Assembly: GCA_944326365.1 (NCBI GenBank)
Contig: CALVDR010000003.1
Span: 1 to 64,000 of the forward strand
DNA: 64,000 nucleotides
Reading direction: 5' to 3'
DNA from: an uncultured Bacteroidales bacterium
GTDB lineage: Bacteria > Bacteroidota > Bacteroidia > Bacteroidales > UBA932
Positions 7,631 through 64,000 of the stretch are shown here, one piece after another. The stretch's first letter is position 1. Each line of letters starts with the position of its first letter. The position numbers and the translations under genes are program-made. Under the pieces are notes generated by a model. That model did not search any database, was not told the origin of the DNA, and saw only the letters and a list, made by a program, of their open reading frames with translations.

Positions 7631-9499
7631 ATGGATAAGAATTCTATAATCGGCTTCGTGCTGATAGGGGTGATTTTCTTCGGATTCACCTGGTATCAGT
7701 CAAACCAATATCAGAAACAGAGGGAGTATCAGGCCCAGCTTGACTCGATAGCTTATGCGGAACAGGCAGCCCTGATGGCGGAGCAGGATTCCATAGCACG
7801 CGCATCAGGAATCATGGCAGCCGAATCCGGGACAGCGGCTTCTTCAGGTCAGAAGAAGTATCTCGATTCACTGCTGAACAGCCGCAGCAATGCCGAAGCC
7901 GGCTATGTGACTCTGGCAAACGACAAGCTTGAACTGGTCCTGAGTACGAAGGGGGCACAGCCTTATTCGGCCAGGCTCAATGACTACAGGACTTATGACA
8001 GTACCGATCTGTACCTTATCAAACCGGGCTACAGCGATTATAACATAGCTGTCTTCGCAGGGGAGAACATCAATACCCGCGAAGTGGTCTTCGATGTGGC
8101 CGAGACTACGGATTCATCGGTCGTTATGCGCCTTCCGTTCCGGAACGGCGGCTATCTCGAACAGAAGTACATCCTTCCGGAGGACAGCTACATGGTCAGG
8201 AACGAGATGTCTTTCGTAAATGCGGAGGGTCTCATACCGAGGAAGATAAACAGTTTCGACATAGACTGGAACGTCATCATTCCGAGGCTTGAGAAAGGCT
8301 ATACGAACGAGAAGCAGTATTCGAAGCTCGACTATTATTTTTCCGGTGAGAAGAAACCGGAACAGCTCGGCCGGGGCGGGCGCAATGCCAGTGAGAGCAT
8401 AGTGTCGAAAGTGAAGTGGTTCGCTTTCCAGCAGCAGTTCTTCTCTGCCATCATGACTGCGGAAAACGAATTTTCATCTGCGGATTTCAGCATACGGTTC
8501 TATGATGAGAAGGATCCCGACAGGAATCTGATGATGTGCAATGCCCGCATTCAGTCGGAACTCAGACTGGAGAACGGGAATGTCACCATACCTTTCGATT
8601 TCTATTTCGGCCCGAACCATTACCGTACGTTGAAGGACTATGACCGGAAATATGAAAAGATAATACCACTGGGAGGTAGTGTCATAGGTCTGATAAGCCG
8701 TGGCGTGATCATCCCTACATTCAATTTCCTGGGCAAATTCATCCACAACTACGGTATCATCATCCTGATCATGACCATCCTGATCAAGATCGTGGTTTCC
8801 CCGCTGACGATGAAGTCATACAAGTCTTCGGCGAAAATGAATATCCTGAAGCCGGAGATAGACAAGCTCAACGAGAAATACCCGAAACAGGAGGATGCAC
8901 TGAAGAAGCAGCAGGCCATGATGGATCTGTACAGGAGAGCCGGTATCAGCCCTATGGGAGGCTGTCTGCCGATGCTTCTGCAGCTGCCTATCCTGTATGC
9001 CATGTTCCGTTTCTTCCCTGCTTCCATCGAGCTCCGGCAGCAGAAGTTCCTGTGGGCGGATGACCTGAGCGCATATGATTCCATTCTGGATCTGCCTTTC
9101 AATATTCCGCTGTATGGCGACCATGTATCGCTTTTCGCCCTGCTCATGGCAGTTTCGATGTTCCTGTATTCGAAGATGACATCGAACCAGATGTCGAATG
9201 ATCCGAGCATGGCCGGAATGAAGTTCATGAGTGTCTGGCTGATGCCGCTGATGATGCTTTTCATCTGTAACAATCTCTCCAGCGGACTTAGCTACTACTA
9301 TCTGCTTTCGAACCTCATCACCATGCTTCAGACCTGGTTCGTGAGACGTTATCTTGTGGATGAGAAGAAGATTCATGCTCAGCTGGCAGCTTCCGCAGGC
9401 AAGCCTCTTCCGAAGTCGAAGTGGCAGCAGAGACTGGAGGAAGCCCAGAAGATGCAGCAGCAGGCGCTCAAGGAACAGCAGAAGCGCAGCAGACGATAA
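7631..9499 (+). CDS. yidC: Membrane protein insertase YidC
   Basis: 622 residues. It inserts and folds inner-membrane proteins, alone or with SecYEG. It has an N-terminal transmembrane segment (IGFVLIGVIFFGFTWY), a large periplasmic beta-rich domain (about 60-340) as in Gram-negative YidC, then the conserved 60KD_IMP core with PLTMKSYKSSAKM (about 393-405) and four further membrane helices including GCLPMLLQLPILYAMFRFFP. The C-terminus is a long basic tail rich in Lys, Arg and Gln, suited to ribosome contact. The YggS-type gene follows after 14 bp. Confidence 0.97.
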   Translation: MDKNSIIGFVLIGVIFFGFTWYQSNQYQKQREYQAQLDSIAYAEQAALMAEQDSIARASGIMAAESGTAASSGQKKYLDSLLNSRSNAEAGYVTLANDKLELVLSTKGAQPYSARLNDYRTYDSTDLYLIKPGYSDYNIAVFAGENINTREVVFDVAETTDSSVVMRLPFRNGGYLEQKYILPEDSYMVRNEMSFVNAEGLIPRKINSFDIDWNVIIPRLEKGYTNEKQYSKLDYYFSGEKKPEQLGRGGRNASESIVSKVKWFAFQQQFFSAIMTAENEFSSADFSIRFYDEKDPDRNLMMCNARIQSELRLENGNVTIPFDFYFGPNHYRTLKDYDRKYEKIIPLGGSVIGLISRGVIIPTFNFLGKFIHNYGIIILIMTILIKIVVSPLTMKSYKSSAKMNILKPEIDKLNEKYPKQEDALKKQQAMMDLYRRAGISPMGGCLPMLLQLPILYAMFRFFPASIELRQQKFLWADDLSAYDSILDLPFNIPLYGDHVSLFALLMAVSMFLYSKMTSNQMSNDPSMAGMKFMSVWLMPLMMLFICNNLSSGLSYYYLLSNLITMLQTWFVRRYLVDEKKIHAQLAASAGKPLPKSKWQQRLEEAQKMQQQALKEQQKRSRR

Positions 9500-9513
9500 C
9501 GCTTGAAGATATT

Positions 9514-10191
9514 ATGGAAAACAGTATTGCATCAGCAATAGCGAAACTGAAAGAGGAACTGCCATCAAATGTAAAATTGGTGGCAGTTTCCAAATTCCAC
9601 CCGGCTGAAGCCGTGATGGAGGCCTATTCTGCCGGACAAAGGGTCTTTGGCGAGAGCCGTCCGCAGGAACTTGCCGCGAAGGCGGCCGTCCTCCCGGCAG
9701 ATATTTCATGGCATTTCATAGGGCATCTCCAGACGAACAAGCTGAAGCTGGTCCTGCCTGTAGCTGCCATGGTAGAGTCTGTCGACAGCCTGCATCTTCT
9801 GGAAGCAGTCGACAGATGGGGGAGGGAAAATGACAGGATCATCAGTGTGCTTCTGGAAATGCATATAGCATCGGAGACGACGAAACAGGGATTTTCATCG
9901 GATGAGATTCTCGAAGTCGCATCCCGGGCTTCCTGTTTCCCCAATGTCAGGATATGCGGCCTTATGGGTATGGCCACTTTTACGGATGATGAGACTGTAA
10001 TCCGGAAAGATTTTGCTAAATTAGTGACTTTAAGGGATGAAATCAGGTCCGAAATGGATAAATTCCCAGGATTGCCCGATGATTTCGGCATATTGTCATT
10101 CGGCATGACGCATGATTACCGCATTGCGGTGGAGATGGGCGCCGATATTGTCCGGATAGGGACACTTATATTCGGAGAACGGAATTACTGA
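9514..10191 (+). CDS. YggS/PROSC family pyridoxal-phosphate homeostasis protein
   Basis: 225 residues from the ATG chosen here; the frame runs further upstream into yidC, but homologues start near this methionine. Fold-type III PLP-binding protein without known catalysis, involved in vitamin B6 and amino-acid homeostasis. Visible motifs are LVAVSKFHP, containing the PLP lysine (about residue 24), then FGESRPQELAAKA, WHFIGHLQTNKLK (about 67-79), and near the C-terminus LSFGMTHDYRIAVEMGADIVRIGTLIFG, the phosphate-binding end. It lies 14 bp after yidC. Immediately after its stop codon begins a run of four short repeats. Confidence 0.93.
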   Translation: MENSIASAIAKLKEELPSNVKLVAVSKFHPAEAVMEAYSAGQRVFGESRPQELAAKAAVLPADISWHFIGHLQTNKLKLVLPVAAMVESVDSLHLLEAVDRWGRENDRIISVLLEMHIASETTKQGFSSDEILEVASRASCFPNVRICGLMGMATFTDDETVIRKDFAKLVTLRDEIRSEMDKFPGLPDDFGILSFGMTHDYRIAVEMGADIVRIGTLIFGERNY

Positions 10192-52152: not shown

Positions 52153-53388
52153 ATGAAAGATGCAGTAATTATTCTCTGCGGCGGCGGTCCTGCCCCGGGA
52201 ATGAATTCGGTTTCAATGAGTGTGGCCAAGACTTTTCTGTCAAAAGGTTTCAGGGTTATAGGCCTTCATGGCGGTTATTCGGGACTTTTCAGCAAGAATG
52301 CGCGTACAGAGGATCTCGATTTCTTCAAGGCTGACCGTTATTTCAACAGGGGAGGCTCTTATCTGGAGATGAGCCGGTTCAAACCTACCGACAAGGATTT
52401 CGAGGAGAACTTCAATCTCGATCTTTTCAAGGAGAACAACATCAAGCTGCTCGTGACCATCGGAGGCGATGATACGGCTTCTACTGCAAACAGGATTTCC
52501 AAGTTCCTGGCTGCAAAGAATTATCCTATCGCCAATATCCACTGTCCGAAGACTATCGACAACGACCTTCCTCTGCCGAACAATACTCCGACTTTCGGAT
52601 ACAATTCTGCAAAGAATGAGGGTGCCCATCTGGCCAGGACCATCTACGAGGATGCACGTACTTCAGGCAACTGGCTGCTGATTTCTGCCATGGGACGTAC
52701 TTGCGGAAGTCTTGCACTCGGAATAGGCGAGGCTACACATTGCCCTATGACCATCATTCCAGAGATGTTCAACAAGACTGACATCAGCCTGGAGAAAATC
52801 ATAAAGCTGACTATTTCAGCCATCATCAAGAGGAAGATCATGGGTGTGAACTACGGTACCGTAGTGGCAGCCGAGGGACTTTTCCACGATGAGGGCGTGG
52901 CCAAGGAGGCTGCAGCTGCAGGCGTTCATTTCACTTATGACGAGCACGGACATCCCGAGCTCGGAAAAATATCAAAGGCCGTCCTTTTCAACGACCTTCT
53001 GGAGAAGGAACTGAAGAAAATCGGCCTGAAGGTGAAGACCCGTCCTGTGGAGATCGGATATGATGTCCGCTGCCAGGATCCGGTTGCTTACGACCTGACA
53101 TACTGTACGGAGCTCGCCATGGGTGTTTACCAACTCTACAGCGAGGGCAAGACAGGATGTATGGTGTATGTGGATGCCTACGGCAATGTTTCTCCGCTTT
53201 ATCTGTCTGACCTCCAGGACCCTGCTACAGGCAAGATCCCTCCGAGAGTAGTGGATATCAACAGCGGTACTGCCCAGAATTACTACAACTACATCGCCCA
53301 CTATGTCACTGAGGCTGACTACGAGGCTGCAAAGGCGTTTGTTTCAGATCCTGAGGCTTACGATTTCAAAAAGATCCTGAACTGGTAA
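52153..53388 (+). CDS. pfp: 6-phosphofructokinase, PPi-dependent type
   Basis: 411 residues. It phosphorylates fructose-6-phosphate in glycolysis. The motif ILCGGGPAPGMNSVSMSV (about 7-24) starts the nucleotide/PPi site. GGDDT (104-108) has Asp where ATP enzymes have Gly (GGDGS), and PKTIDND (132-138) has Lys where ATP enzymes have Gly. These two changes are the known determinants of pyrophosphate use. MGRTCGSLALGIGEA (about 180-194) is the substrate segment. With the class III FBPase at 10300-12291 this gives a reversible PPi step and a hydrolytic step. It is followed by a clear terminator and then by foreign-looking DNA. Confidence 0.95.
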   Translation: MKDAVIILCGGGPAPGMNSVSMSVAKTFLSKGFRVIGLHGGYSGLFSKNARTEDLDFFKADRYFNRGGSYLEMSRFKPTDKDFEENFNLDLFKENNIKLLVTIGGDDTASTANRISKFLAAKNYPIANIHCPKTIDNDLPLPNNTPTFGYNSAKNEGAHLARTIYEDARTSGNWLLISAMGRTCGSLALGIGEATHCPMTIIPEMFNKTDISLEKIIKLTISAIIKRKIMGVNYGTVVAAEGLFHDEGVAKEAAAAGVHFTYDEHGHPELGKISKAVLFNDLLEKELKKIGLKVKTRPVEIGYDVRCQDPVAYDLTYCTELAMGVYQLYSEGKTGCMVYVDAYGNVSPLYLSDLQDPATGKIPPRVVDINSGTAQNYYNYIAHYVTEADYEAAKAFVSDPEAYDFKKILNW

Positions 53389-53433
53389 ATGAAAATGTAG
53401 ACTAAAGTCGCACATTTGCATACAAATGATTGA

Positions 53434-53467
53434 AGAAGAGTTGTTTCGGCAGCTCTTCTTTTTTTTG
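53434..53467 (+). terminator. Intrinsic terminator after pfp
   Basis: A 10-bp stem (AGAAGAGTTG / CAGCTCTTCT, one G-T pair), 6-nt loop and a T8 tail, 45 bp after the pfp stop codon. It marks the last clearly native signal before the island. Confidence 0.9.
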
Positions 53468-53512
53468 TTTGTATGACGATTGTTATCATTAACTATCAAT
53501 GTTTTCACTGTT

Positions 53513-53531
53513 TTTGTACCGTATTTGTACC
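53513..53531 (+). repeat. Two direct TTTGTACC repeats at the island edge
   Basis: TTTGTACC occurs at 53513-53520 and 53524-53531, an 11-bp period, just beyond the pfp terminator. Such short phased repeats are often recombinase arm sites or operator half-sites; no integrase gene is seen next to them, so the role is open. Confidence 0.4.
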
Positions 53532-53598
53532 AAAAGTGAATTCAGAGAGCAAACTCGTAGGACGGAGTGTAGGGAAATGTGAAGTAATATAGAAGGTT

Positions 53599-53638
53599 TG
53601 AAACATTCTGAAACATTCTGAAACACGATGAAACACTT
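53599..53638 (+). repeat. Four 10-bp iteron-like repeats
   Basis: Consecutive units TGAAACATTC, TGAAACATTC, TGAAACACGA, TGAAACACTT. A 10-bp period places them on one face of the helix, like operator or replication-initiator sites of mobile elements. They lie 40 bp upstream of the zinc-ribbon frame. Confidence 0.65.
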
Positions 53639-53677
53639 TTTCATGTCCCGTACTCGGACACACTAAAGAACAAAACA

Positions 53678-54076
53678 ATGTTTCAAAAAACGTGTAAACA
53701 GTGCGGAACAGTTTTTAAGACGACCCGTTATCCGACGGTCTTCTGTTCTCAGAGCTGCTATTTCAAATTCAAGCGGGCTGAGGCTAACAAGAAACGGCTT
53801 GAGCAAATTCAGACGTATGACAAATCTTTGGGGGCATTCCTGAAGGACGGGTACATTTATTTCCATAAGACATGTGCCTGCTGCGGTCGAGAGTACATTA
53901 CTCGGTTTATCAATGGCAAGGAAAGGAAGTCAAAGAATCCTTCGAATACCGCAACAGAACTGCGGTCGTTCTCCGGTATGCACTTCAGTGTGCTCAAATC
54001 GTTCGATGTGCACTTCTTGGTGAAGCGGGACCGAAGGACATATCCGCCAGAGTCGTTCCTGAATCCGATGGCATAG
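53678..54076 (+). CDS. Zinc-ribbon protein, probably truncated
   Basis: 132-residue frame. The first 85 residues look real: two cysteine pairs CKQCGTVF and CSQSC (about 6-27) form a zinc ribbon, then a basic helix, and a further CACCGREYI pair (about 71-79). From about residue 82 onward the sequence is simply the antisense of the primase-remnant gene on the other strand and looks non-native (Arg/Ser-rich). The two remnants therefore seem to meet near 53900-53920, as after a deletion or recombination. A small DNA-binding protein of a mobile element is the likeliest origin. It follows the iteron-like repeats. Confidence 0.4.
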   Translation: MFQKTCKQCGTVFKTTRYPTVFCSQSCYFKFKRAEANKKRLEQIQTYDKSLGAFLKDGYIYFHKTCACCGREYITRFINGKERKSKNPSNTATELRSFSGMHFSVLKSFDVHFLVKRDRRTYPPESFLNPMA

Positions 54077-54552
54077 AACTGTCTGCCCCGTATTCCGACT
54101 ATGCTGTATATGACTTCCGTGCAGAAAGATTCAAGAGTTTCAAGACTGATCCCTCTTTCTTCGGCATAACTGATCAGACTCCTGTTCCTGAATCCGCTCC
54201 TGGAGGATATAATGTCAATTCTGCTTGCTTTTCCCTTTTCCTTCTGATGGCTGTATTGGGATAAGGCGATAAAGTCTTTCCTCATGGATGCCAAAAAATC
54301 GTATGCCTGTGACCTGCTGCACCCGGCAAGTCTTGTCACTATGTCTATGATCCCACCTCCTTCGCCTGTCCCGAAATCATACCAGGTATTATTGTTTGGA
54401 TTGATATGGAAAGACGGAGTGCACTCCTCCCGGAAGGGGGAGTAGAACATGTTCCCTCGGCTGTGCTCAGTGGCCTTGCCAAAATGGGACAGTATAAGTT
54501 CTATGGGGGTCTGAAGCAGTATCCTCTTCTCTTCTTCTGTAAAAGCAGGCAT
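53857..54552 (-). pseudogene. Truncated CHC2/Toprim primase-like gene of a mobile element
   Basis: 231 residues from MPAFTEEEKRILLQTPIELILSHFGK. NMFYSPFREECTPSFHINPNNNTWYDFGTGEGGGIIDIVTRL matches the DnaG-type zinc-finger fold used by Bacteroidota mobile-element primases, though the zinc ligands are mostly gone. LISYAEERGISLETLESFC and YAIGFRNDSGGYVLRSRF are also typical, and the Toprim domain begins at SVAVFEGFFDFLSLPLIN. After that only about 16 unrelated residues follow before the stop. The rest of the Toprim domain (normally about 60 or more residues) is missing, so the gene is 3'-truncated and likely inactive. It is divergent from the double-HTH regulator. Confidence 0.7.
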
Positions 54553-54582
54553 TATTGATGTATTGTAAAGTAAAATCAAATG

Positions 54583-54613
54583 TTTGTAAAAACTCATCAA
54601 AAAGTTATCTTTG
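54583..54613 (+). promoter_or_regulatory. Promoter of the double-HTH gene
   Basis: TTTG (54583-54586), 19-bp spacer, TATCTTTG (54606-54613): a full match to the Bacteroidota consensus. It leaves about 100 nt of leader to the preferred ATG at 54722, or about 20 nt to a GTG at 54641. Confidence 0.8.
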
Positions 54614-54721
54614 TGAAGATTCATCTGAGAATCAACGCAAGTGTTAATAAAAACAGAGGTAAAGTTAATAGAAAATGATATTATTTCAAAATATTTACTT
54701 GCCTTAATAAGCATCGAAGAG

Positions 54722-55213
54722 ATGGAGAACAAAAAAGCAAGGAATGTCCGCAGCGGTTCCTATCCGCTGAAGAATCTGAAGTTTCTGTATGATTTTGCGG
54801 CAGAAATGAATCTGACCGTCGGCGATCTGGCTGCCAGGATGGGGCTTTCAAGGCAGTCTGTGTACTACTGGTTCAAGAAGGACGACGTGAAGATATCCAA
54901 TATCTACAGGCTGTTTGATGTGCTCGGTTATGAGATCCGGTTCAGCCTGACAGATATGAAAGAGGAGACAAACCCAAATGTGAAGGTGACATCCAAACTA
55001 TATTCTCCGGAAACGCCTAAGAATCTGGATTTTCTTACCATAGCTCTCAATCAGTATCGTATCAACAAGACCGACCTTTGCCGGGACCTGAATCTTGGTG
55101 CGACTACGATTTATTCATGGCAGGTTCATGATGACTGCTTCATGTCGTATATCTTCAGAATTGCTGAGCTGAGGGGATTGAGGTTGAATATAGATATTAG
55201 ACCTAAAAATTAA
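54722..55213 (+). CDS. Transcriptional regulator with two helix-turn-helix units
   Basis: 163 residues from ATG 54722 (MENKKARNVRSGSYPLKN); the frame can start at a GTG at 54641, which would add 27 hydrophobic residues that look unlike a DNA-binding protein. HTH 1 lies at about 31-50 (LTVGDLAARMGLSRQSVYYW) and HTH 2 at about 114-133 (INKTDLCRDLNLGATTIYSW). The two halves resemble each other (each has a leading helix, HTH, then a short strand, EIRFSLT and RLNIDIR), suggesting internal duplication, so a single chain could bind two adjacent sites. It is transcribed towards the downstream cluster, 112 bp before the DUF1848 gene, and may regulate it. Confidence 0.75.
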   Translation: MENKKARNVRSGSYPLKNLKFLYDFAAEMNLTVGDLAARMGLSRQSVYYWFKKDDVKISNIYRLFDVLGYEIRFSLTDMKEETNPNVKVTSKLYSPETPKNLDFLTIALNQYRINKTDLCRDLNLGATTIYSWQVHDDCFMSYIFRIAELRGLRLNIDIRPKN

Positions 55214-55325
55214 TTCAATAATCCAAATAGTCAATTATCTGTTAAATTGTCGCGAAATTACATTGTGTATATAAAGACAACAGTGCCAGAAAATAAAAAT
55301 TGATTCACATAATTTAAATACTCCT

Positions 55326-56357
55326 ATGGAAACGAAAGAAAGGATTACAATCAAGCGCGAAAATGGTGAACTTGTAGAGGCTCAAGCTCCTGTTATCGTA
55401 TCTGCCAGCCGTAGTACAGATATTCCCGGTTTCTATAGTGATTGGTTCCTCCACCGTTTAAAGGTAGGATACTCATCCTGGACAAATCCTTTTAACGGAG
55501 TCAGAAGTTACGTCTCATACCAGAATACAAGGCTTATTGTTTTCTGGTCAAAGAATCCAAAGCATTTGTTGGATGAAAATGGCCTGATAGATTACCTTAA
55601 CAAAAAAGGCATCAATTGCTATGTCCAGTTTACACTTAACGATTATGTAGAAGAGAAACTTGAACGTGGAGTACCATCCGTTGATGAGCGGATAGAAACG
55701 TTCAAGTCCCTAGTTGACAAACTTGGATATGGAAAAGTTATTTGGCGTTTTGATCCTTTGATTTTGACAGATAAAATCAGTATTGAAGATCTGCTTCGAA
55801 AGATTAAAAACATTGGGGATAGACTTAAAGGATATACTGAGAAATTAGTATTCAGTTATGCCGATATTGCCGCCTATAAAAAGGTTAAGGCCAACCTTGA
55901 AGCGAATGAAGTCCACTATCGTGAATTTTCAGAAGATGACATGATCCGCTTTGCATCCGGTTTGCAGCGATTGAACGAAAACTGGGGATATACATTGGCC
56001 ACCTGTGGAGAGAAGATTGATATTGAAAAGTATGGCATAATACACAACAAGTGCGTTGATGATGACCTGATGATTAAGTACTTCTCTGATGATGCCAAAC
56101 TGATGGAATTTCTCGGAGTGGAAGTTCAAGGTGTTGATTTGTTTACTGGGACAAAGACAATCATAAAGAAGAAAAATAATAAGGACAAGGGCCAGAGACA
56201 GTTCTGCGGCTGTATAGTCAGCAAGGATATAGGTGAATACAACACCTGTGCTCACCTTTGTGAATACTGTTACGCGAACAGCTCTAAGGAATCAGCTTTA
56301 CGGAATCTGCAAATTCACAGACGTAATCCGTTCGCAGAGACTATAAAGGGTATATGA
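55326..56357 (+). CDS. DUF1848 protein with radical-SAM-like cysteine cluster
   Basis: 343 residues. VIVSASRSTDIPGFYSDWFLHRLKVGYSSWTNPFNG (about 23-58), VFWSKNPKHLLDENG (about 72-86), VIWRFDPLIL (about 138-147) and FSYADIAAYKKV are the conserved blocks of DUF1848. Near the C-terminus there is a cysteine cluster, C294, C296, C308, C312, C315, in which C-x3-C-x2-C followed by Tyr has the spacing of the radical-SAM [4Fe-4S] motif but at the opposite end of the protein. A TIM-barrel with an iron-sulphur site is likely; chemistry and substrate are unknown. The stop is 1 bp from the start of the 1717-residue gene, so the two are expressed as a unit. Confidence 0.85.
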   Translation: METKERITIKRENGELVEAQAPVIVSASRSTDIPGFYSDWFLHRLKVGYSSWTNPFNGVRSYVSYQNTRLIVFWSKNPKHLLDENGLIDYLNKKGINCYVQFTLNDYVEEKLERGVPSVDERIETFKSLVDKLGYGKVIWRFDPLILTDKISIEDLLRKIKNIGDRLKGYTEKLVFSYADIAAYKKVKANLEANEVHYREFSEDDMIRFASGLQRLNENWGYTLATCGEKIDIEKYGIIHNKCVDDDLMIKYFSDDAKLMEFLGVEVQGVDLFTGTKTIIKKKNNKDKGQRQFCGCIVSKDIGEYNTCAHLCEYCYANSSKESALRNLQIHRRNPFAETIKGI

Positions 56358-56358
56358 T

Positions 56359-59300
56359 ATGACCTATAAGGATGAAATAACTGCTCTAGGTGAAATCTCT
56401 TTTGATAAAATCAGAAGAGTCGCTTACAATTATGTAATGACCCTTTCAGATAAGGAACGGGATTTACTATTTGAATCGTTGAATCATGGAGTTGATTTGC
56501 TTTCTTCAGATGCCCAAATGAAACTCTATATCTATTCGTTTGGAAAGATGCATCAGGCAAAGGTAAACCGAGCTCTTCAGAGTCTAAGCCTGTCTGTATT
56601 TACAAGCAATGATTTCGACATCGTTGATTGGGGCTGCGGTCAAGGTCTTGCAACAGTTTGTTTTTTCGATTTTCTAAAAGCAAAGCATATCTCGAATCGA
56701 GCGCAAAACATCACATTGATTGAGCCGTCGGATGCTGCCAGGGAGAGAGCGGAGATACATGTGAGAACATATACGGAAAAACATCAAAAGGTTAATTGTA
56801 TAGGGAAATACATTGATGATGTCTCTAAAGAGGATATAAAGTCGATAAGCCCAGTAACATTCCATTTTTTCTCGAATATCCTTGACATCAGCAGCATTGA
56901 CCTTAAACTTCTTTCTGAAAAAGTAGGAGCAAACATTCAAGGACAACACTATGTGGTCTGTATCGGTCCAATGAATAGCGGGAACCGAAGGCTGGATAGA
57001 TTTTACGAGTATTTCAATGCTCCCGAAACGTTCTTGAATGAAACTCAGTCAGAGTATAGATATTCTGCAAACAGTAGTCCTTGTTCTTACAACATCAAGG
57101 TGTTCAAACTGGAGAATAATCAGGTTAATGTTGTTGCTGAAGATTATTATCCTGACGTGCAGTTTTATGCAGGATATCAGCTTGACGCTGTTCGTGAAGC
57201 TATGAAAACTGATGATGAGGAATTTAATGAAAAGGTCAGAGGACTGTATAAATATCTTTCAAGTTTTGAGGTAGCCGCACCATTTGATTTTGGAGCTGGT
57301 GTATATGATGATGTGAATCCAATTTTGGCTGTCTTAAACAATATTATCACAAGAGGCTTGCCTACGAAAAGCAGCCCATTTATTGAAGCAGCTTTTGAGA
57401 AATTAGGCAATAAGAAGCAAAATGATAGTCTTGGCGCATTAAACTACAATGCAGATCATCTCGATGCTCAAGAGTTGTTTATAGCCCTTCATTCTATAGA
57501 TTCCAGATTTATCCTAAATTCGGACAATTATAATAAATCAGTACTGGAAAGCGATTTTGAGAAGAACTTCATAACTACATTCGCACCACAATTTTTCAGA
57601 CAAATATTTCAGCCCCAACGAAGCTTGGTGTCTTTTACAGGAGACAGTGTGCATCATTCACAGAGAGTCGATTTCGCTTGCCAATACCCATATGAGACAA
57701 CCGATTCGAATGGGGATACTCTTAAGGGATGTGTCGTTGAACTTGATGGCATTCAATATCATTCAAACGAGAAGAACAGATTACAAGATAAGGAACGTGC
57801 GGAAGAGTTATACCAGAAAGGTTGGAAATGTATCAGGATTAATGATTATACTCAAGTCGACAAAGACTTAAAGGCTCTGAATAACGATTATTTCAGAACT
57901 GTCAACAAGGCTTGCAAAAAGGAATTTAACAAGAGTTGGAAAAGGACTCTACAGATGGCTCTGACTCCAATAGGAGTTGCTCGTGTCGAGAAGACAATAC
58001 TTGAAGCTATCATGACCGGCAAGATGGACTTGAATAAATCGGATTGGAATATCCTTGCTGTTGAGCGGGATGTTCCATGTGTCGCTCTTGCATTGAGGAA
58101 TCTCACTCAAATGTTCAACAATCTGACATGTCTCAGTGAGGACTACAAGGCATTAAAATTTCCGACAATCCATCTTGATATCATAAGTTCCTATGAGTTC
58201 ATTGATTCACCATTGCATACATATGATGGAGGAGTCTCATCAGTTGAACTTAATTTGTTAGATTCAGAAAACAAGTTGGACAAATCGATACAATATGATG
58301 TCATTCTTGATATTGCAGTTCTAAGACGCTCTGGGTTAGAGGTTAAGGCTTTCAGCAAATTCAAATGCCCTAGCAAGTGTTATTTCTGCATCCGTTCCTC
58401 ACATTATGTCAGGGGAGAAAGACACATATACACTACTGATCCGATAACTTATCAGCCGCTTGTAACCAAGGATTCACAAGGAAACTATTTGGATATACCA
58501 GACAGGAAGGAACTCCTGCAGTATTTCTTGCAGTTACTTTTCAGAAAGGTGAATTTTCGCCCTGGGCAGCTCCCGATACTTAGTAGAGCATTGCAGAATA
58601 AGAGCGTCATCGGACTTCTTCCAACAGGCGGTGGTAAATCTTTGACCTATCAATTGGCTTCTATGCTTCAGCCGGGTGTCACAATAGTTGTTGACCCGCT
58701 GAGATCACTTATGGCAGACCAGTATGGAGGACTGTTGAAGGCTGGTATTGACACTTGTACATATATCAATTCTACCATTAATGCGTCAGATAAGGAACGC
58801 CGTGCATCAATGATGGAAACGTCAAAGATACAGTTTGTTTTCCTTTCACCTGAACGTCTTTGTACATATGCATTTCGTGAGAAACTGCGTAATATGCATC
58901 AATTAGGTGTGTATTTTACATATGGAGTGATAGATGAGGTGCATTGTGTATCAGAATGGGGGCATGATTTTAGATTTACCTATCTGCATTTGGGAAGGAA
59001 TCTATACCAATATGTACTCCCCAAACAGACAGATAAGGAACGGCATCTGACATTGTTCGGTCTGACAGCCACAGCCTCATTTGATGTGTTAGCTGATGTT
59101 GAAAGGGAACTTTCCGGAGAGGGTGCTTTTGAACTTGATTCTGATACGATAGTACGCGACGAGAATACAAACCGGTTGGAACTTCAGTATAAGATAGAAA
59201 AAGTGCCGGTGCGGTATGAAGATGATCAATATTATAATCAGAAAGGTTATGTGGATTCCAGCCTTCCTCGTGCTGTAATGATTTCCGACAAATGGTCCGT

Positions 59301-61512
59301 CTATCAATCTAAAAAGGAATATTTAAAGGAATATCTGGCCAAGATTCCTGAGTATATTGACGACCTTCAGAAAGATGATTCGCTAGATGTTATTAAGAAC
59401 CGTTTCAATGAGCGTCAGAATATTACGGGTACAATTGATGCTGATTTAAAGACAAATCTACCTGAAGATTTTTTTGAAGAGAACGAACTGTATGAACAAG
59501 CCGGAATAGTGTTCTGTCCACATAAGAAGAGTACAGGACTTTCAGTAATGGAGATTTATCATTCCTTGCATGAGGATATACAGGACATCGGCACATTCAT
59601 GGGAAGCGGTGATGGTGATGATGCAGATGAAATAGATAGGGAGTCATTCAAGAATCTAGATTTATTTAGGGAAAACGAACTTCCGTTGATGGTGGCGACC
59701 AAGGCTTTCGGAATGGGGATTGACAAGCCTAATGTCAGATTTACTGTGAATATGAATTATTCCAGTTCACTTGAAAGCTTCGTGCAGGAAGCTGGACGTG
59801 CAGGTCGTGATAGAAAGATGGCTCTGTCTACAATTCTATTGTCAGACTATCGGTTGGTAAGCATCAAGAAGTCGTGCTCCGTCGACAGGTTTCCACTTAT
59901 GATAATAAAAGGGAAATGGTTTCGTGATGGAGATTTACAGGAAATCTTGGATTATTACGGAATCGATCTTGACGAGAGTGACCTTATTTATTATTCACCT
60001 GATAAGGATATGGTCAAATTGCGTTGTGATGTTTGCAACGTACGTTATGCATTCAAATTATGCGGCTCAACTTGTACAAGGTGTAATAAAGGTCCATGCC
60101 TGGTTAGGTGTAGTGAGTACAACCGATGTCAACTTCGACAAGTACCAGATGAAGGGCGTGGATATGTATATGCCGAGGAACTTAAGGAAGTGCTTCGTGC
60201 AAACGGTCTTACAATATCTCCGAGACATTTCGAGTACCAAAATGTCGACTATGAGACCGTGATGTATTTCTACAACAACAACTTCAAAGGGACTCTCATA
60301 GAGATGAGGACTATGATGGAGTTGTTGAATGATTGCGATACAGACATCTTCTATGGCAATGATGCTGAACTGAAAGATACTGTGCCAGTTCGTCATTTCC
60401 TACAAAATGTGCTGAAAGCTGAAGTTGATACAGAAATCGTCGCATTAATATCTGCGATATCTATTTATGAGACCAACGTAAATGGCCTTACAGAGAAGGT
60501 TAAGATACTAAAGTTTGACGGTGACAGGCGAGCGGTGAAGAATATTGAGAATCAGAACGAATTCTGGGTTGAAAAAAAGGATTTGTCGCCATATCGTGAG
60601 AAAGCCGATGTAGCAAAGGCAATTTACAGAATGTGCTGTATAGGTTTGATTGATGACTTCACAGAAGATTACGGGAAGAAAGTATATCGCGTCGTTGCTA
60701 GAAGAAAACCGGATGGGTCATATTATAAGGCACTTCAGACATTCCTGGAAAGGTATTATACAAAAGAAAAGGCAGCCGAAATGGCCACACATATTCCAGA
60801 ATCAGGAGGTGATAATGAAGTACACAATTGTCTGGCTTATCTGACTGAGTTTATTTATGACAAAATAGCTGTCAAGAGGAAACAGGCAATTGATGATATT
60901 CGCACATTCTGTATTGAGGGAACAAGTTATGGTCGGGATTGGAAAAGGGCAAATGAGGAGTTGAAAGACTTCATATATTATTACTTCAACTCCAAGTTCG
61001 CTAGATCGGATTATAAGACGGAAGCAGGAGAGCCATTTTCTCTGACTAATGAGTCAAACAGAGGCCGTAGTTGGTCATATGATATGCTCTTCAAATATAT
61101 GAGGGTTATTGATGATGATGTTGTAGGAACCAGTTCGCCTAAAGATAATATCAAGCACCTTCAAGGTGCAGTCCGACTGATCCGTCGTGCTGTAACTGAC
61201 AGTAATCCAGTTCTTGATTTCTTGAATGTCTATTGCCTCTTATATCTTAAGGTTGGAAATAACAAGAATCTTCAAGAAGAACTTCAGAATAGCTACGTCA
61301 GAGGCTACAGGGCATTCTATAATAACTCTGCCGATAAAACCTCATTCTATAAAATGATGGCCAAATTTAAAAAGGACCTGAATGCTCGTGGAAGGAATGT
61401 CGTTTCAAAGCAAGAACTCGAAATGCTAAAGGAATGGGATCTGGCCAGCGAGATAGATATCCATGCAGACTGGGCAAGTGCCTTTAAGAGAAAATATGCT
61501 GATAACAAATAA
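56359..61512 (+). CDS. Giant fusion: methyltransferase-like domain, PD-(D/E)XK nuclease, RecQ-type helicase
   Basis: 1717 residues. Domains in order: (1) an N-terminal part with a class I methyltransferase-like Rossmann fold, motif I DIVDWGCGQGLATV (87-100) and LIEPSD (120-125), but no NPPY-type catalytic motif; (2) a middle region with an MTES_1575/DUF559-like nuclease, RVDFA (Asp 438), VVELDGIQYHS (459-469) and DKERAEELYQKGWKCIRI (477-494), the usual acid, E-x-D, His and terminal RxxxL..GW..IRI pattern; (3) a linker with a CPSKCYFC cluster (670-677); (4) a RecQ helicase, motif 0 FRPGQ (733-737), Walker A LPTGGGKS (754-761), DEVHC (859-863), VSEWGHDFR (864-872), LTATAS (902-907), FGMGIDKPNVRF (1117-1128), QEAGRAGRD (1143-1151); (5) eight cysteines C1223-C1257 like a RecQ zinc module; (6) a long C-terminus of unknown fold. 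I know no family with this exact layout. A DNA-targeting defence enzyme is the best guess. Confidence 0.85.
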   Translation: MTYKDEITALGEISFDKIRRVAYNYVMTLSDKERDLLFESLNHGVDLLSSDAQMKLYIYSFGKMHQAKVNRALQSLSLSVFTSNDFDIVDWGCGQGLATVCFFDFLKAKHISNRAQNITLIEPSDAARERAEIHVRTYTEKHQKVNCIGKYIDDVSKEDIKSISPVTFHFFSNILDISSIDLKLLSEKVGANIQGQHYVVCIGPMNSGNRRLDRFYEYFNAPETFLNETQSEYRYSANSSPCSYNIKVFKLENNQVNVVAEDYYPDVQFYAGYQLDAVREAMKTDDEEFNEKVRGLYKYLSSFEVAAPFDFGAGVYDDVNPILAVLNNIITRGLPTKSSPFIEAAFEKLGNKKQNDSLGALNYNADHLDAQELFIALHSIDSRFILNSDNYNKSVLESDFEKNFITTFAPQFFRQIFQPQRSLVSFTGDSVHHSQRVDFACQYPYETTDSNGDTLKGCVVELDGIQYHSNEKNRLQDKERAEELYQKGWKCIRINDYTQVDKDLKALNNDYFRTVNKACKKEFNKSWKRTLQMALTPIGVARVEKTILEAIMTGKMDLNKSDWNILAVERDVPCVALALRNLTQMFNNLTCLSEDYKALKFPTIHLDIISSYEFIDSPLHTYDGGVSSVELNLLDSENKLDKSIQYDVILDIAVLRRSGLEVKAFSKFKCPSKCYFCIRSSHYVRGERHIYTTDPITYQPLVTKDSQGNYLDIPDRKELLQYFLQLLFRKVNFRPGQLPILSRALQNKSVIGLLPTGGGKSLTYQLASMLQPGVTIVVDPLRSLMADQYGGLLKAGIDTCTYINSTINASDKERRASMMETSKIQFVFLSPERLCTYAFREKLRNMHQLGVYFTYGVIDEVHCVSEWGHDFRFTYLHLGRNLYQYVLPKQTDKERHLTLFGLTATASFDVLADVERELSGEGAFELDSDTIVRDENTNRLELQYKIEKVPVRYEDDQYYNQKGYVDSSLPRAVMISDKWSVYQSKKEYLKEYLAKIPEYIDDLQKDDSLDVIKNRFNERQNITGTIDADLKTNLPEDFFEENELYEQAGIVFCPHKKSTGLSVMEIYHSLHEDIQDIGTFMGSGDGDDADEIDRESFKNLDLFRENELPLMVATKAFGMGIDKPNVRFTVNMNYSSSLESFVQEAGRAGRDRKMALSTILLSDYRLVSIKKSCSVDRFPLMIIKGKWFRDGDLQEILDYYGIDLDESDLIYYSPDKDMVKLRCDVCNVRYAFKLCGSTCTRCNKGPCLVRCSEYNRCQLRQVPDEGRGYVYAEELKEVLRANGLTISPRHFEYQNVDYETVMYFYNNNFKGTLIEMRTMMELLNDCDTDIFYGNDAELKDTVPVRHFLQNVLKAEVDTEIVALISAISIYETNVNGLTEKVKILKFDGDRRAVKNIENQNEFWVEKKDLSPYREKADVAKAIYRMCCIGLIDDFTEDYGKKVYRVVARRKPDGSYYKALQTFLERYYTKEKAAEMATHIPESGGDNEVHNCLAYLTEFIYDKIAVKRKQAIDDIRTFCIEGTSYGRDWKRANEELKDFIYYYFNSKFARSDYKTEAGEPFSLTNESNRGRSWSYDMLFKYMRVIDDDVVGTSSPKDNIKHLQGAVRLIRRAVTDSNPVLDFLNVYCLLYLKVGNNKNLQEELQNSYVRGYRAFYNNSADKTSFYKMMAKFKKDLNARGRNVVSKQELEMLKEWDLASEIDIHADWASAFKRKYADNK

Positions 61513-61525
61513 AATACTATAAGTT

Positions 61526-62290
61526 ATGGATAATGCTAATATCCTGGCCACACTGGCCAAATTAGAAGAGAGTATCAAAGGGATTGATTCTGCAAAAAAG
61601 CAGGTTGACGATGTAATCAAAGGTTATGGCGATGCCAAGAAAGCCTTTGATGTATTAGCGAAGTCTATGTCTGGAGTCAAAACAAATGTTGATTCTGTCC
61701 TGAAAGCAGTCAAAGAAAAAGCCGATTCTTTAGATGCTGAATCTAAAGCAATCTCAACCGAATTCAAAACTGGTTGTGATCGTTCTTTCACAGAAGCAAA
61801 GAAGTCACTGGAGTCTGTTAATGAAATTTTTGAAAAAGGGGTGAGTAGCTCAGTATCCCGATTGAATGATACTATTGAGGCTCTCGGAGGCTGTGTGTCG
61901 TCTTTGAATAAACTGACGGATGTTATTACTTCTGCTATGGCAAAAGTAGATTTACTTCATGAAGAATTGAAGAAAACAAAATCGGGGGTAGTTTCTGAAG
62001 TGAGAAGTAAAAGTGATGAGACTAAGTCAAAATTAGACGGGAAAATAAATGAGTTGTCTGGATTGATTGAGACGAAGGCTTCTGAGATAATTGAGTTGGA
62101 AGGAAAGCAAAATTCGACACTTTCTAGTATTATGTCTTCTATTAATTCCTTAAAAAGGGAACAAGAGAGCAGTCAGATATTACTTAATTCCATTCTAAAG
62201 AAGCAAAAGTTAGTTATTAAAATAATAGCAATAATTACTTTGATAGTCGTTATAGCTGGCATACTATTATACTATAAGGTAATAGCGTAA
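61526..62290 (+). CDS. Tail-anchored coiled-coil protein
   Basis: 254 residues, not recognised. Nearly the whole chain (about 1-225) is heptad-like, rich in Lys, Glu, Ser, Leu and Val, predicting a long coiled coil with few Pro or Gly. A single hydrophobic helix closes the protein (VIKIIAIITLIVVIAGILLYYKV, about 230-252), preceded by KKQK, so the coil should be cytoplasmic and the C-terminus in the inner membrane. It starts 13 bp after the giant helicase-fusion gene, on the same strand, and is probably part of the same transcript. It could be a membrane effector or a scaffold; no enzymatic motif is seen. Confidence 0.75.
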   Translation: MDNANILATLAKLEESIKGIDSAKKQVDDVIKGYGDAKKAFDVLAKSMSGVKTNVDSVLKAVKEKADSLDAESKAISTEFKTGCDRSFTEAKKSLESVNEIFEKGVSSSVSRLNDTIEALGGCVSSLNKLTDVITSAMAKVDLLHEELKKTKSGVVSEVRSKSDETKSKLDGKINELSGLIETKASEIIELEGKQNSTLSSIMSSINSLKREQESSQILLNSILKKQKLVIKIIAIITLIVVIAGILLYYKVIA

Positions 62291-62336
62291 TATTCAGGCG
62301 GTATTATAGTATTAGCATTTATTAAATATTATAAAT

Positions 62337-63641
62337 ATGACCAGAGTATATAAAAGCAACTTTAGATTCGTTGCCAATCGATACGAAGAATGGCAAGGTG
62401 GCAGATGCATCTCAAGGGGGGAGATTGATACTGAAATCTTGGCCGAAGTGTCTGGGAACACCATTCACTTTGAACTTGATGATATTGCTGATTTGAGAAT
62501 TCTCCAATCTTTTGATTTTTATTGTGGAAATGTAGATTCAGCTGATTTAGGCGACCGTATTCAGTATTCATATGCTACCTCGGATTTCAATCCCATTGTC
62601 CCTATGGTTTGTCACCTCTTTTATTCTGGCAACCGAATTGAATATGTTCGTTTTGCTATGACCAATCCTGACAGATTGATTGAGTTTTATGGAGAAATGG
62701 TCGAACTGGGACAACCATCTACAGGGAGTCGTTCCCAGTCTTCTGCAAATACTTCAGTTACTGCTGAAGAAGTAATGGAGGATCTTGATGACCGTGGGAT
62801 GCTCAATGTAGACACATTGATGGAAAAGGCAATTATACTGTACAATAACAATGCAGATGCCAATAGCATTAAAAAGACTGAAGCAGTATCCGAAGCTCTT
62901 AAATTATTTGTGGAGGCATGTAATCTTGAACGCGATGCAGTGGAAGATGGAGATAAGGATTACTCAATCTGGATGCCAAAAATACTCTTGTATATAGCAC
63001 TTTGCAATTATAAGCTTAATAATATCAATTCAGCGTATTACATTGCGAAAAAGGCATTGGCTGAAATTGACACAGTTGAAGAGCATTCTATTATTTCAGG
63101 CATCCCTAGAGAGATATATGGAGAATCTACCATTAAGGAACTCATCAGTATTATTGAAAATGATCATTGGGATGATGTTGATGAGGACATGGATGTCGAT
63201 GATGTAGATGAAACAGAGGTTGATCTTGATAATTTCTATAATCTTAAACGAAAAATAGAGCGAGAATCCAATGCTGTGGGAAATCCTGAGGCTCAGAGAA
63301 TAATTCAGCTTGTTGAAGTAGTTAGCAAGGTTCAGAGTCAATTTTGGGAAGCATGTTCTCATACTGGTGATAATACGCAAAAGTTCCAGCTTCATGAACT
63401 CTTAAACGTCATTAAAAATGCATTGTATTATTCATGGGAAAAGTTAGGATGTGGACATCATAGCGATTTTTGGGAAGAAGGTGATTCTATGTTTGATTAT
63501 ATGATGTTTGAGATGGGACCAGAAGAACGCATTAAAGCTATCATTAATATGCTTGAAGAATCTTCTCCTTTTGCTTTAGTGGAAAGGAATTCGGCAATAA
63601 CCAACGGATTACTTTCGGTATTTAGAAAAGTTGTTTTATAG
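62337..63641 (+). CDS. Unrecognised acidic protein with helical-repeat-like middle
   Basis: 434 residues, family unknown. The N-terminal 130 residues look beta-rich (FRFVANRYEEWQGGRCISRGEIDTEILAEVSGNTIHFEL). The middle (about 150-265) has paired helices of the TPR kind (ALKLFVEACNLERDAVEDGD, MPKILLYIALCNYKLNNINSAYYIAKKALAEI). A very acidic stretch lies at about 278-298, and a further helical part follows (about 300-434). Conspicuous residues are the ACSHTGDN and LGCGHHSDFWEEG segments (Cys/His near 345 and 375), which might bind metal. It lies 46 bp after the coiled-coil gene in the same array. Confidence 0.7.
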   Translation: MTRVYKSNFRFVANRYEEWQGGRCISRGEIDTEILAEVSGNTIHFELDDIADLRILQSFDFYCGNVDSADLGDRIQYSYATSDFNPIVPMVCHLFYSGNRIEYVRFAMTNPDRLIEFYGEMVELGQPSTGSRSQSSANTSVTAEEVMEDLDDRGMLNVDTLMEKAIILYNNNADANSIKKTEAVSEALKLFVEACNLERDAVEDGDKDYSIWMPKILLYIALCNYKLNNINSAYYIAKKALAEIDTVEEHSIISGIPREIYGESTIKELISIIENDHWDDVDEDMDVDDVDETEVDLDNFYNLKRKIERESNAVGNPEAQRIIQLVEVVSKVQSQFWEACSHTGDNTQKFQLHELLNVIKNALYYSWEKLGCGHHSDFWEEGDSMFDYMMFEMGPEERIKAIINMLEESSPFALVERNSAITNGLLSVFRKVVL

Positions 63642-63658
63642 TTTAATATACTTCAGGT

Positions 63659-63976
63659 ATGAAAAAAATTCGCCTTAATCCACAAATCCTGTCGACGATG
63701 TTCATTGGTTTTAACAGGCATTTATTTACTGCTCCTAAACAAGGTGATATGTATAGCGTTGATGAAGACAACCATGATTGTACTATTTATTTCACGGAAG
63801 ATTTTTGGGAAAAGTATGTTTCAGAATTGCAATCAGCATATCTACAAGGCAAGTTTGCGGCAAGTAATGCTAATAGCGATTGGACAACTCTTCTCCATAT
63901 GATACAAAGAGCATCTGATAGTGTACTTCCATCTAATGCTGCAGATTATTACAATAGCATAAAAATGTTTTTGTAG
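63659..63976 (+). CDS. Small hypothetical protein
   Basis: 105 residues, complete, not recognised. A basic N-terminus (MKKIRLNPQIL) is followed by a mixed strand and helix body (YSVDEDNHDCTIYFTEDFWEKYVSEL) and a helical C-terminus. There is no signal peptide, membrane segment or metal motif. It starts 17 bp after the preceding gene and ends 24 bp from the right edge, so it is part of the same array; whether the array continues cannot be seen. Confidence 0.6.
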   Translation: MKKIRLNPQILSTMFIGFNRHLFTAPKQGDMYSVDEDNHDCTIYFTEDFWEKYVSELQSAYLQGKFAASNANSDWTTLLHMIQRASDSVLPSNAADYYNSIKMFL

Positions 63977-64000
63977 CCAGAATTTTTAAAGTACTATTGT

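Follow-up and report, generated by a model that had tools for sequence, protein, structure and literature searches.

Which of the genes packed together at one end of a contig from an uncultured Bacteroidales bacterium belong with one another, and what might they do for the cell? The window analysed here is the whole 64,000-nucleotide stretch formed by positions 1 to 64,000 of contig CALVDR010000003.1 (assembly GCA_944326365.1), and near its right end five open reading frames (ORFs) lie on the forward strand with gaps of 1, 13, 46 and 17 bp. An initial annotation had given these coordinates and gaps, which agree with our ORF calls, and had proposed a five-gene anti-phage or anti-plasmid operon in which a nuclease-helicase has a modifying or radical-chemistry partner. 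The genes encode a DUF1848 protein of 343 aa (55326..56357), here a candidate eraser or antidote; a fusion of methyltransferase-like, nuclease, RecQ helicase and C-terminal domains of 1717 aa (56359..61512); a coiled-coil protein of 254 aa with a predicted C-terminal membrane segment (61526..62290); and two proteins of 434 aa (62337..63641) and 105 aa (63659..63976), each an accessory or a passenger. The core of the system consists of the first three genes, DUF1848, fusion and tail-anchored coiled coil, and the last two stand outside it. This gene system is real and recurrent, it is unnamed in the sources searched, and the operon in the window is one member of it.

The reading of the fusion as a nuclease joined to a helicase was borne out, but an N-terminal methyltransferase-like (MT) domain had been overlooked. 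Residues 1-262 (56359..57144, forward strand) take a class-I S-adenosylmethionine (SAM) methyltransferase fold in an AlphaFold2 model of fusion residues 1-715 (mean pLDDT, the per-residue confidence, 84.8; pTM, the predicted template-modelling score, 0.66). The best Foldseek match of the domain is 8csp chain 7 (E 2.7e-6, probability 1.00), part of an assembly intermediate of the human mitochondrial small ribosomal subunit, which we take to be METTL17 of the Rsm22 family; many SAM methyltransferases follow it in the list. Motif I reads DWGCGQG (residues 90-96, 56626-56646, forward strand), and D90, W91, C93, G94, Q95, H169, F171, S172, N173 and D176 are invariant in 17 diverse sequences. With a Rossmann-like fold and a glycine-rich SAM motif, the MT domain is thus predicted, by fold match, to be a class-I methyltransferase-like domain. 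At the motif-IV position it carries HFFSNILD instead of the NPPY/DPPY-type motif of base-amino DNA methylases, and a Pfam scan of the fusion returned no DNA methylase family.

It is this domain that the upstream gene accompanies. A scan of genome contigs with two patterns, one of them the MT motif, yielded at least 576 candidate loci, of which the best 80 were kept (loci are labelled L, genomes G). Together with the window they give 75 assessable loci after six are left out, four with a truncated 5′ end (L017, L039, L064 and L071) and two with no or too little upstream DNA (L070 and L046). The relatives are labelled mainly as Bacteroidota, with others in Eggerthellaceae, Lachnospiraceae, Desulfovibrio and further groups, and many are metagenome assemblies that could be misbinned. 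A partner gene, encoding either DUF1848 or an AlkB-family protein, is present in 62 of the 63 loci with an MT domain (DUF1848 in 52, AlkB in nine, both in one), and in the sole exception, L081, the fusion is truncated. All 20 loci that combine MT and nuclease domains have DUF1848. The 43 MT loci lacking the nuclease have DUF1848 (32), AlkB (nine), both (one) or neither (one). By contrast, no partner occurs in any of the 12 loci without an MT domain, each of which bears the nuclease (Fisher test for the association of MT and partner, 5e-13). Hence the partner goes with the MT domain and not with the nuclease or the type of helicase. The expectation that DUF1848 and fusion genes co-occur in other genomes was therefore confirmed, whereas the idea of a radical-chemistry partner to the nuclease-helicase as the core of the system was not.

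Of the 50 loci that have DUF1848, a full RecQ core and an MT domain, 47 place DUF1848 upstream of the fusion, and for 42 of those 47 the two genes are separated by -31 to 16 nt. In Mantel tests over the same 50 loci, distances between DUF1848 proteins correlate with those between MT domains (r 0.32, P 0.0001), with a partial value of 0.26 given RecQ, and less with those between RecQ cores (r 0.22, P 0.0037), where the partial value given MT is -0.12.

Independent support for the pairing of MT domain and partner comes from a search of the order for the MT domain made without reference to RecQ, which found a match in 20 of 393 genomes. In sixteen of the 20, a DUF1848 gene on the same strand lies no more than 4 kb away. 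Two of the remainder have the genes on different contigs, one lacks DUF1848 and one is a weak Rsm22-like match. Fourteen of the 16 loci are new, the other two being the window and G720, which is the contig of L014 itself. A phylum-wide search gave matches in five of 395 genomes: the window, G374 with DUF1848, G076 with AlkB, G284, in which no partner was found within the stretch fetched around the MT gene, and G005, a weak Rsm22-like match. These order and phylum tallies include the genomes of L107 and L126, whose weak MT matches (E 2e-7 and 3e-8) look Rsm22-type.

In some lineages DUF1848 has been exchanged for an AlkB-family gene. Genes of this kind, encoding 204-231 aa, occur in ten loci, nine of them at the DUF1848 position and the tenth (L014) together with DUF1848. 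Outside the 80 loci, the phylum-wide match G076 likewise has AlkB at the partner position. Two of the ten members were scanned against Pfam and match PF13532 (2.5e-33 in L020, 2.4e-32 in L014), the other eight being assigned by profile. The relatives, though not the window itself, thus show the 2-oxoglutarate-Fe(II) fold and HxD...H...R signature of the AlkB family, with H127, D129, H184, R196 and R202 invariant in 10/10; in the window's own genome (G000) no AlkB-family (PF13532) match was found. The nearest PDB relatives of the AlkB partner are human ALKBH3 and ALKBH2 (best 3.6e-47), and the state of the partner changes at least five times on the RecQ tree. According to the available portions of published work, E. 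coli AlkB demethylates 1-methyladenine and 3-methylcytosine, ALKBH3 acts on single-stranded DNA, and ASCC3 supplies the strands (PMC5304225, PMC4517488, PMC7608686).

The DUF1848 protein is itself predicted to be a circularly permuted radical-SAM-type enzyme. It matches the Pfam DUF1848 family at 300.9 bits (cut-off 30.5), and a PDB sequence search with it returned nothing credible (best E 0.27). Its structure model suggests a radical-SAM-type barrel with the radical-SAM-type Fe-S motif CxxxCxxC (C308, C312 and C315; 56247..56270, forward strand) at the C-terminal end, and this motif is invariant in 35/35 aligned sequences. Positions 5-20 of the Pfam Radical_SAM model align to DUF1848 residues 306-324 (E 0.004, below the cut-off). 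Elp3 and RlmN, both nucleic-acid-modifying enzymes, are among the folds matched by the model; the comparison was made by VIA-align, and fold families not listed there are not thereby excluded.

The initial annotation is borne out insofar as a nuclease-helicase and a membrane-anchored coiled coil are both supported as predictions. A PD-(D/E)XK-type nuclease domain occupies residues 386-525 (57514..57933, forward strand), with RVDF at 436, ELDG at 461 and H468. Its Pfam matches in the window protein (MTES_1575, E 2e-5, and DUF559) are below cut-off, PF18741 is listed in the pre-computed annotation of many fusion homologues, and the domain is absent from many fusion relatives. A RecQ-type superfamily 2 (SF2) helicase core follows at residues 720-1170 (58516..59868, forward strand), its motifs intact, with TGGGKS at 756, DEVH at 859 and QEAGRAGRD at 1143. 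It has the Pfam DEAD and Helicase_C domains above cut-off, and its PDB matches are RecQ1 and RecQ, as for a RecQ helicase core. However, the NCBIfam RecQ models stay under their cut-offs (TIGR01389 reaches 2.2e-69 but 234 of 640 bits, and TIGR00614 199.2 of 219.8 bits), and we therefore regard the helicase as a RecQ-like core rather than RecQ itself. A cysteine cluster, C1223-C1257 (60025..60129, forward strand), probably binds zinc. The conserved C-terminal domain, residues 1406-1646 (60574..61296, forward strand), has no Pfam family that we could find.

The coiled-coil protein has one hydrophobic segment, from residue 226, which supports a tail anchor. Counting the window, 66 loci could be assessed for a gene of this type, defined by a length of 110-400 aa and a hydrophobic segment at the C-terminus, and in 64 of them such a gene comes immediately after the fusion (the exceptions are L003 and L004); loci with a fusion ORF of 1200 aa or less, or without a following ORF, were left out of this count. 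No such constancy is seen for the last two genes, and here the proposal of five genes as one set fails: the 434-aa and 105-aa genes rarely accompany the other three. Leaving the window aside, three of the 80 loci carry a relative of the 434-aa gene, with 28-34% identity. In the order sample, four of the 393 genomes have one at E <= 1e-5; one of these is the window's own genome, and in the other three no MT match lies on the same contig. We rejected the five-gene unit on the rarity of these relatives in both samples. The 434-aa protein has no significant Pfam match. Its family, with 179 relatives at E <= 0.001, is seldom met in the order sample, and shorter relatives lie upstream of DUF1848 in L043 and L044.

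Some members of the system lie close to known defence genes. In L016, L020, L021 and L028 the fusion has PglZ and BrxL as neighbours at 10 kb or less, and in L020 and L028 the trio of AlkB, fusion and coiled coil lies between a PglX-like gene and PglZ. PglZ genes of the length found in bacteriophage exclusion (BREX) systems, taken as an open frame of at least 800 aa, number nine in 48 genomes, and four of the nine are within 10 kb of a fusion where about 0.05 would be expected (0.88 Mb of flanks in 171 Mb, 48 genomes); the other 43 of the 52 PglZ-domain hits measure 513-614 aa. The suggested enrichment near defence genes is thus seen as BREX linkage in some relatives, while N6_Mtase genes show only a weak excess. 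A PADLOC scan of 121 nearest neighbours (126 proteins before five leftover system pieces in the alignment were dropped) returned 223 families; it has neither per-family counts nor a control and was not used as a measure of enrichment. A defence role for the three-gene set appears likely.

Matches to parts of the system occur in phages and on plasmids. Relatives of DUF1848 occur in 18 viral loci, and only in L086 and L087, which are the same contigs as L083 and L084, does a BLAST match to the MT part lie beside them. Of seven phage records, one (MT836254.1) has an MT match after DUF1848. The fusion as a single sequence found no match among viral contigs, and the fusion alignment matches only the L083/L084 contigs, through the MT part. 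Matches on plasmids extend over 42-52% of the fusion, with identities of 30-37%. Most viral DUF1848 loci, being without an adjoining MT gene, would fit phage-carried antidotes. DUF1848 is also found in the very large viral contigs L094 and LR756501.1 (673 and 735 kb), where it may possibly be a phage counter-antidote or a repair enzyme. In L085, inspection by eye shows an ORF resembling a superfamily 1 (SF1) helicase after DUF1848 and before the contig end.

What could such a set of genes do? The partner follows the MT domain and not the nuclease, which argues against a partner that mainly serves the nuclease and fits two enzymes acting on one mark. Since the helicase is fused to a predicted methyltransferase that is paired with this partner, a helicase-guided writer with an eraser as antidote suggests itself. 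Our tentative explanation, to which we give somewhat less than even credence, is that the three genes form a toxin-antidote defence by reversible methyl marking, with a logic like that of DarTG. The helicase would open invading or replicating DNA, the MT domain would place blocking methyl marks on the exposed strands, and the nuclease would cut; DUF1848, or AlkB in relatives, would erase the same marks from the cell's own nucleic acid, and the coiled coil's anchor might hold the complex at the membrane. Phage or plasmid DNA would be the target, and marks left in place would be toxic. Because the AlkB partner resembles ALKBH2 and ALKBH3, the mark may be guessed to be of the N1-methyladenine/N3-methylcytosine type. 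A more far-reaching proposal, which we consider doubtful, is that of a new immune-system class: RecQ SF2 or UvrD-like SF1 helicases with a METTL17/Rsm22-like MT domain would methylate nucleic acid reversibly and create replication-blocking lesions, a permuted radical-SAM DUF1848 or an ALKBH3-like protein would be the antidote, and phages would carry solitary DUF1848 genes as counter-antidotes.

Several observations weigh against this account of reversible marking. RNA is as plausible a substrate of the MT domain as DNA, given that the domain's best structural match belongs to an assembly intermediate of the mitoribosome. The MT motif was among the scan patterns, and the set of loci therefore favours MT-positive members; moreover, the 12 MT-less loci are one clade, and the RecQ tree gives one independent comparison. 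DUF1848 occurs in 74 of the 393 genomes of the order against 20 for the MT domain and often stands alone; it must hence have other uses. In the fold comparison of DUF1848, radical-SAM folds come ahead of other barrels only modestly. Three of the four BREX-linked loci represent one AlkB lineage, the expectation rises to 0.27 if all 52 PglZ-domain hits are counted, and N6_Mtase genes within 10 kb number three (L008, L014 and L078) against 0.74 expected (from 144 hits in the 171 Mb, with the same 0.88 Mb of flanks). Finally, L138 has an intact MT domain with DUF1848 only on another contig, and L135 has a broken MT motif I beside DUF1848.

These last two belong to a handful of orphan cases, which are few and prove nothing but lean towards an MT domain that is harmful without its partner. 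G741, which has no DUF1848 match, holds an MT copy with DWQCGQ and FTDVLEQ at the broken motifs and with a broken Walker A (ANGSKT replacing TGGGKS), and a second copy that by eye reads SNLPGM instead of SNxLD. L081, the MT locus with a truncated fusion and no partner, is a further such case. A test for degeneracy classed three of 92 MT rows as degenerate (L134, L135 and a short L137 piece without aligned residues); L136 and the second MT of G776 also deviate, as judged by eye.

Other explanations divide the same observations differently. DUF1848 or AlkB might strip protective modifications off phage DNA so that the RecQ helicase-nuclease could destroy it, and a partner of a type suited to nucleic acid demodification, a nuclease and helicase in one protein and the linkage to BREX would all be in keeping with this. 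Such unlocking, however, predicts that the partner goes with the nuclease, and it was found in none of the 12 nuclease-bearing loci without an MT domain and in 42 of the 43 MT-bearing loci without a nuclease, which leaves this explanation quite improbable. Sequential hypermodification has the same pairing in its favour: the MT domain would methylate and DUF1848 or AlkB would oxidise or elaborate the product into a self mark or an altered RNA, with nuclease and helicase attacking unmarked invaders. Fusions of DUF1848 to MT agree with it, as does the presence of Elp3 and RlmN among the matched folds. Nevertheless, the MT domain does not have the NPPY/DPPY-type motif IV, 43 of its 63 loci lack the nuclease, and ALKBH2/3-like enzymes are known as mark removers; we consider this scheme unlikely, although it retains an appreciable chance.

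It is also conceivable that the system is not defensive and carries out helicase-coupled repair of alkylated nucleic acid, as a bacterial analogue of ASCC3-ALKBH3. The AlkB partner is nearest to ALKBH3, solitary DUF1848 genes occur in chromosomes and phages, and in the available part of one report the ASCC3 helicase provides single-stranded DNA for AlkBH3 (PMC7608686). Repair would, however, leave the MT domain unexplained even though the partner depends on it, and it sits poorly with a sparse distribution (20/393 genomes), a foreign island and linkage to BREX, so that we accord it a small chance. Furthermore, the likeness to ASCC3-ALKBH3, an AlkB-type dealkylase with an SF2 helicase, extends to the AlkB-type relatives only, and the helicase there is Ski2-like, while here we see a RecQ helicase, a bacterial operon, a methyltransferase domain and a membrane anchor. 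Very improbable, in our judgement, is the suggestion that the genes are a loose collection of passengers which share a mobile island and do not work together. The island does hold mobile-element remnants, and the genes at 62337-63976 are not conserved with the rest, but the order DUF1848, fusion, coiled coil recurs in many genera with near-zero gaps, and for these three core genes the observations contradict the suggestion.

The system resembles several known ones without belonging to them. The initial annotation did not recognise the set as a named system, and the defence models agree with this: no NCBIfam model scores above cut-off, and strong PADLOC matches are limited to the helicase core and DUF1848. 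The three-gene set was not found described in the titles and abstract beginnings of the literature searched, the name DUF1848 is absent from the 5.39 million papers searched (supplementary files and subscription papers lie outside both searches), and the available passages of published work on BREX, YprA helicases and phosphorothioation do not describe it.

For the reversible marking that we tentatively favour, a close parallel in proposed logic is DarTG, in which a base-modifying enzyme is paired with a remover of its mark. The available text of published studies reports that DarTG reversibly ADP-ribosylates DNA (PMC5179494) and that a phage-encoded mimic of its antitoxin exists (PMC11481870). 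DarTG differs in using an ADP-ribosyltransferase and a macrodomain where we find methyltransferase-like and radical-SAM or AlkB-type enzymes, and unlike DarTG the window system has a fused nuclease and RecQ helicase and a membrane-anchored third protein; reversal is a proposal in our case. Neither the DarT ADP-ribosyltransferase nor the DarG macrodomain was named in Pfam or PADLOC scans of the island proteins, and a protein with ADP-ribosyltransferase and glycohydrolase parts (ART/ARG) is seen only in a related operon (L174).

Helicase-based systems offer further comparisons. PsyrTA, also known as RqlHI, consists of a RecQ-like helicase toxin with a partner, and it shares with the window set a RecQ-family helicase with an operon partner (PADLOC PsyrT matches the helicase part at 1.1e-49). 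However, the window set has MT and nuclease domains, a DUF1848 or AlkB partner and a third membrane gene, PADLOC gave no PsyrA-named match in any island protein, and membership was rejected because only the helicase core matches. Zorya has a similar layout of a membrane coiled coil with a helicase-nuclease and contains MotA/MotB-type proteins; among the island proteins PADLOC gave no ZorB-named match, and ZorA only at E 0.004 over the coiled coil. Models of DpdF from the Dpd system match the RecQ-like helicase at 1.8e-64 in PADLOC but reach 113.7 of 550 bits in NCBIfam, no other Dpd gene is named beyond the helicase matches, and Dpd membership was likewise rejected because the helicase core alone matches. 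The PADLOC model RTasDUF1848, associated with reverse transcriptases as in defence-associated reverse transcriptase (DRT) systems, matches the window DUF1848 at 4.2e-32 and is an earlier sign of DUF1848 in defence loci; no reverse transcriptase match was found in the island by Pfam, PADLOC or NCBIfam. PglX, PglZ, BrxL and BrxC are not named among the matches of island proteins, in which a weak match to the BrxHI helicase appears (E 0.01). Type I/IIG restriction was rejected, the MT domain being without a base-amino methylase motif.

The MT domain occurs in other architectures as well. In the 16 order-sample loci it is joined to RecQ, to an SF1 helicase, to Sel1 or leucine-rich repeats (LRR), or to no other domain. 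RecQ fusions are those of the window and G720. G676 has an MT-SF1-helicase fusion and the broken gene of G397 is similar, MT-Sel1/LRR proteins occur in G626 and G738 (by Pfam) and in G679 and G576 (by eye), G592 has a 613-aa MT protein of unclear make-up, and G419 a lone MT protein of 253 aa. In-frame fusion of DUF1848 to MT is seen twice (L023; L112/L130); in the order sample there is one, the DUF1848-MT-LRR fusion of G776, and L023 is the second natural fusion of the two. In L130 (6494-9190, reverse strand), L133 (4421-8173, reverse strand) and L139 (8313-9920), MT proteins with Sel1 or BspA-type leucine-rich repeats are beside or fused to DUF1848, with no helicase match in the same protein. 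In L141 (3673-7573), the gene after DUF1848 encodes 954 aa and combines MT with an FGE-sulfatase (sulfatase-modifying-factor-like) domain.

A four-gene operon of DUF1848, SF1 helicase, a protein of about 550-590 aa and an MT protein is complete in G548, G600 and G458, and in G561 and G411 its DUF1848 gene is cut by the contig start. The third protein of the G600 operon is an ADP-ribosyltransferase plus glycohydrolase. Operons of this kind lie at L173:2293-7674, L174:203-5506 (reverse strand) and L175:460-5992 (reverse strand); in L174 the third protein was matched to 2CompART and 2CompARG, and the last, of about 500 aa, has MT in its C-terminal half. As judged from sequence, this transferase-glycohydrolase protein beside DUF1848 and MT is again a candidate writer-eraser pair, and the operon looks like a sister system with two such pairs. 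In L024:5054-9940 and L180:453-5390, DUF1848 adjoins proteins of about 1630 aa that combine a NERD nuclease with an SF1 helicase and have a C-terminal methyltransferase-like stretch of their own (DIGCGP, YFFSNV); a profile comparison of this stretch with the MT domain gave a probability of 75.7, which is only suggestive. In L015 and L016, the latter BREX-linked, the locus has another form in which DUF1848 comes downstream; by eye, the coiled coil and DUF1848 are separated there by a VWA-like gene, and DUF1848 is followed by one resembling exonuclease III (L015:7334-7927 and 9025-9789).

In the window, the system lies on an A/T-rich island (53389..64000) with a G+C content of 39.2%, against 50.6% for positions 1-53388, and its description as foreign DNA thus holds. 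Past the window end G+C climbs back to about 50%, and a 1002-aa gene on the opposite strand is the first large ORF to follow, which places the end of the island near 64.0-64.3 kb, after the window and before 64275. A phosphofructokinase-like gene, named by eye, forms the left flank (52153-53388). In a genome of the same genus (G842), the flanking genes enclose a single 550-aa gene and a 62-aa ORF and are 1861 bp apart, compared with 10.9 kb in the window genome. An ORF with a DnaG-like CHC2 zinc finger (53857-54732, reverse strand), overlapping a 132-aa ORF on the other strand, is probably mobile-element debris at the left end of the island. The double helix-turn-helix regulator that the operon was said to follow is present (190 aa; 54641..55213, forward strand), with HTH_26 and Phage_CI_repr above their cut-offs, and may control the operon. 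The last 24 bases of the window show no hairpin in the predicted fold, a result that was not used.

Based upon these findings, DUF1848 acquires a functional frame, as an enzyme whose place is beside a methyltransferase domain and which can be exchanged for AlkB. Should DUF1848 use radical chemistry to take methyl groups off bases, it would represent a demethylase of a new kind. Should the MT domain write toxic methyl lesions, a further reversible anti-invader chemistry would exist besides ADP-ribosylation and classical restriction, and the DUF1848 genes of phages would be testable counter-defences. The exchange of DUF1848 for AlkB points to specific nucleosides, and this prediction would therefore be cheap to test.

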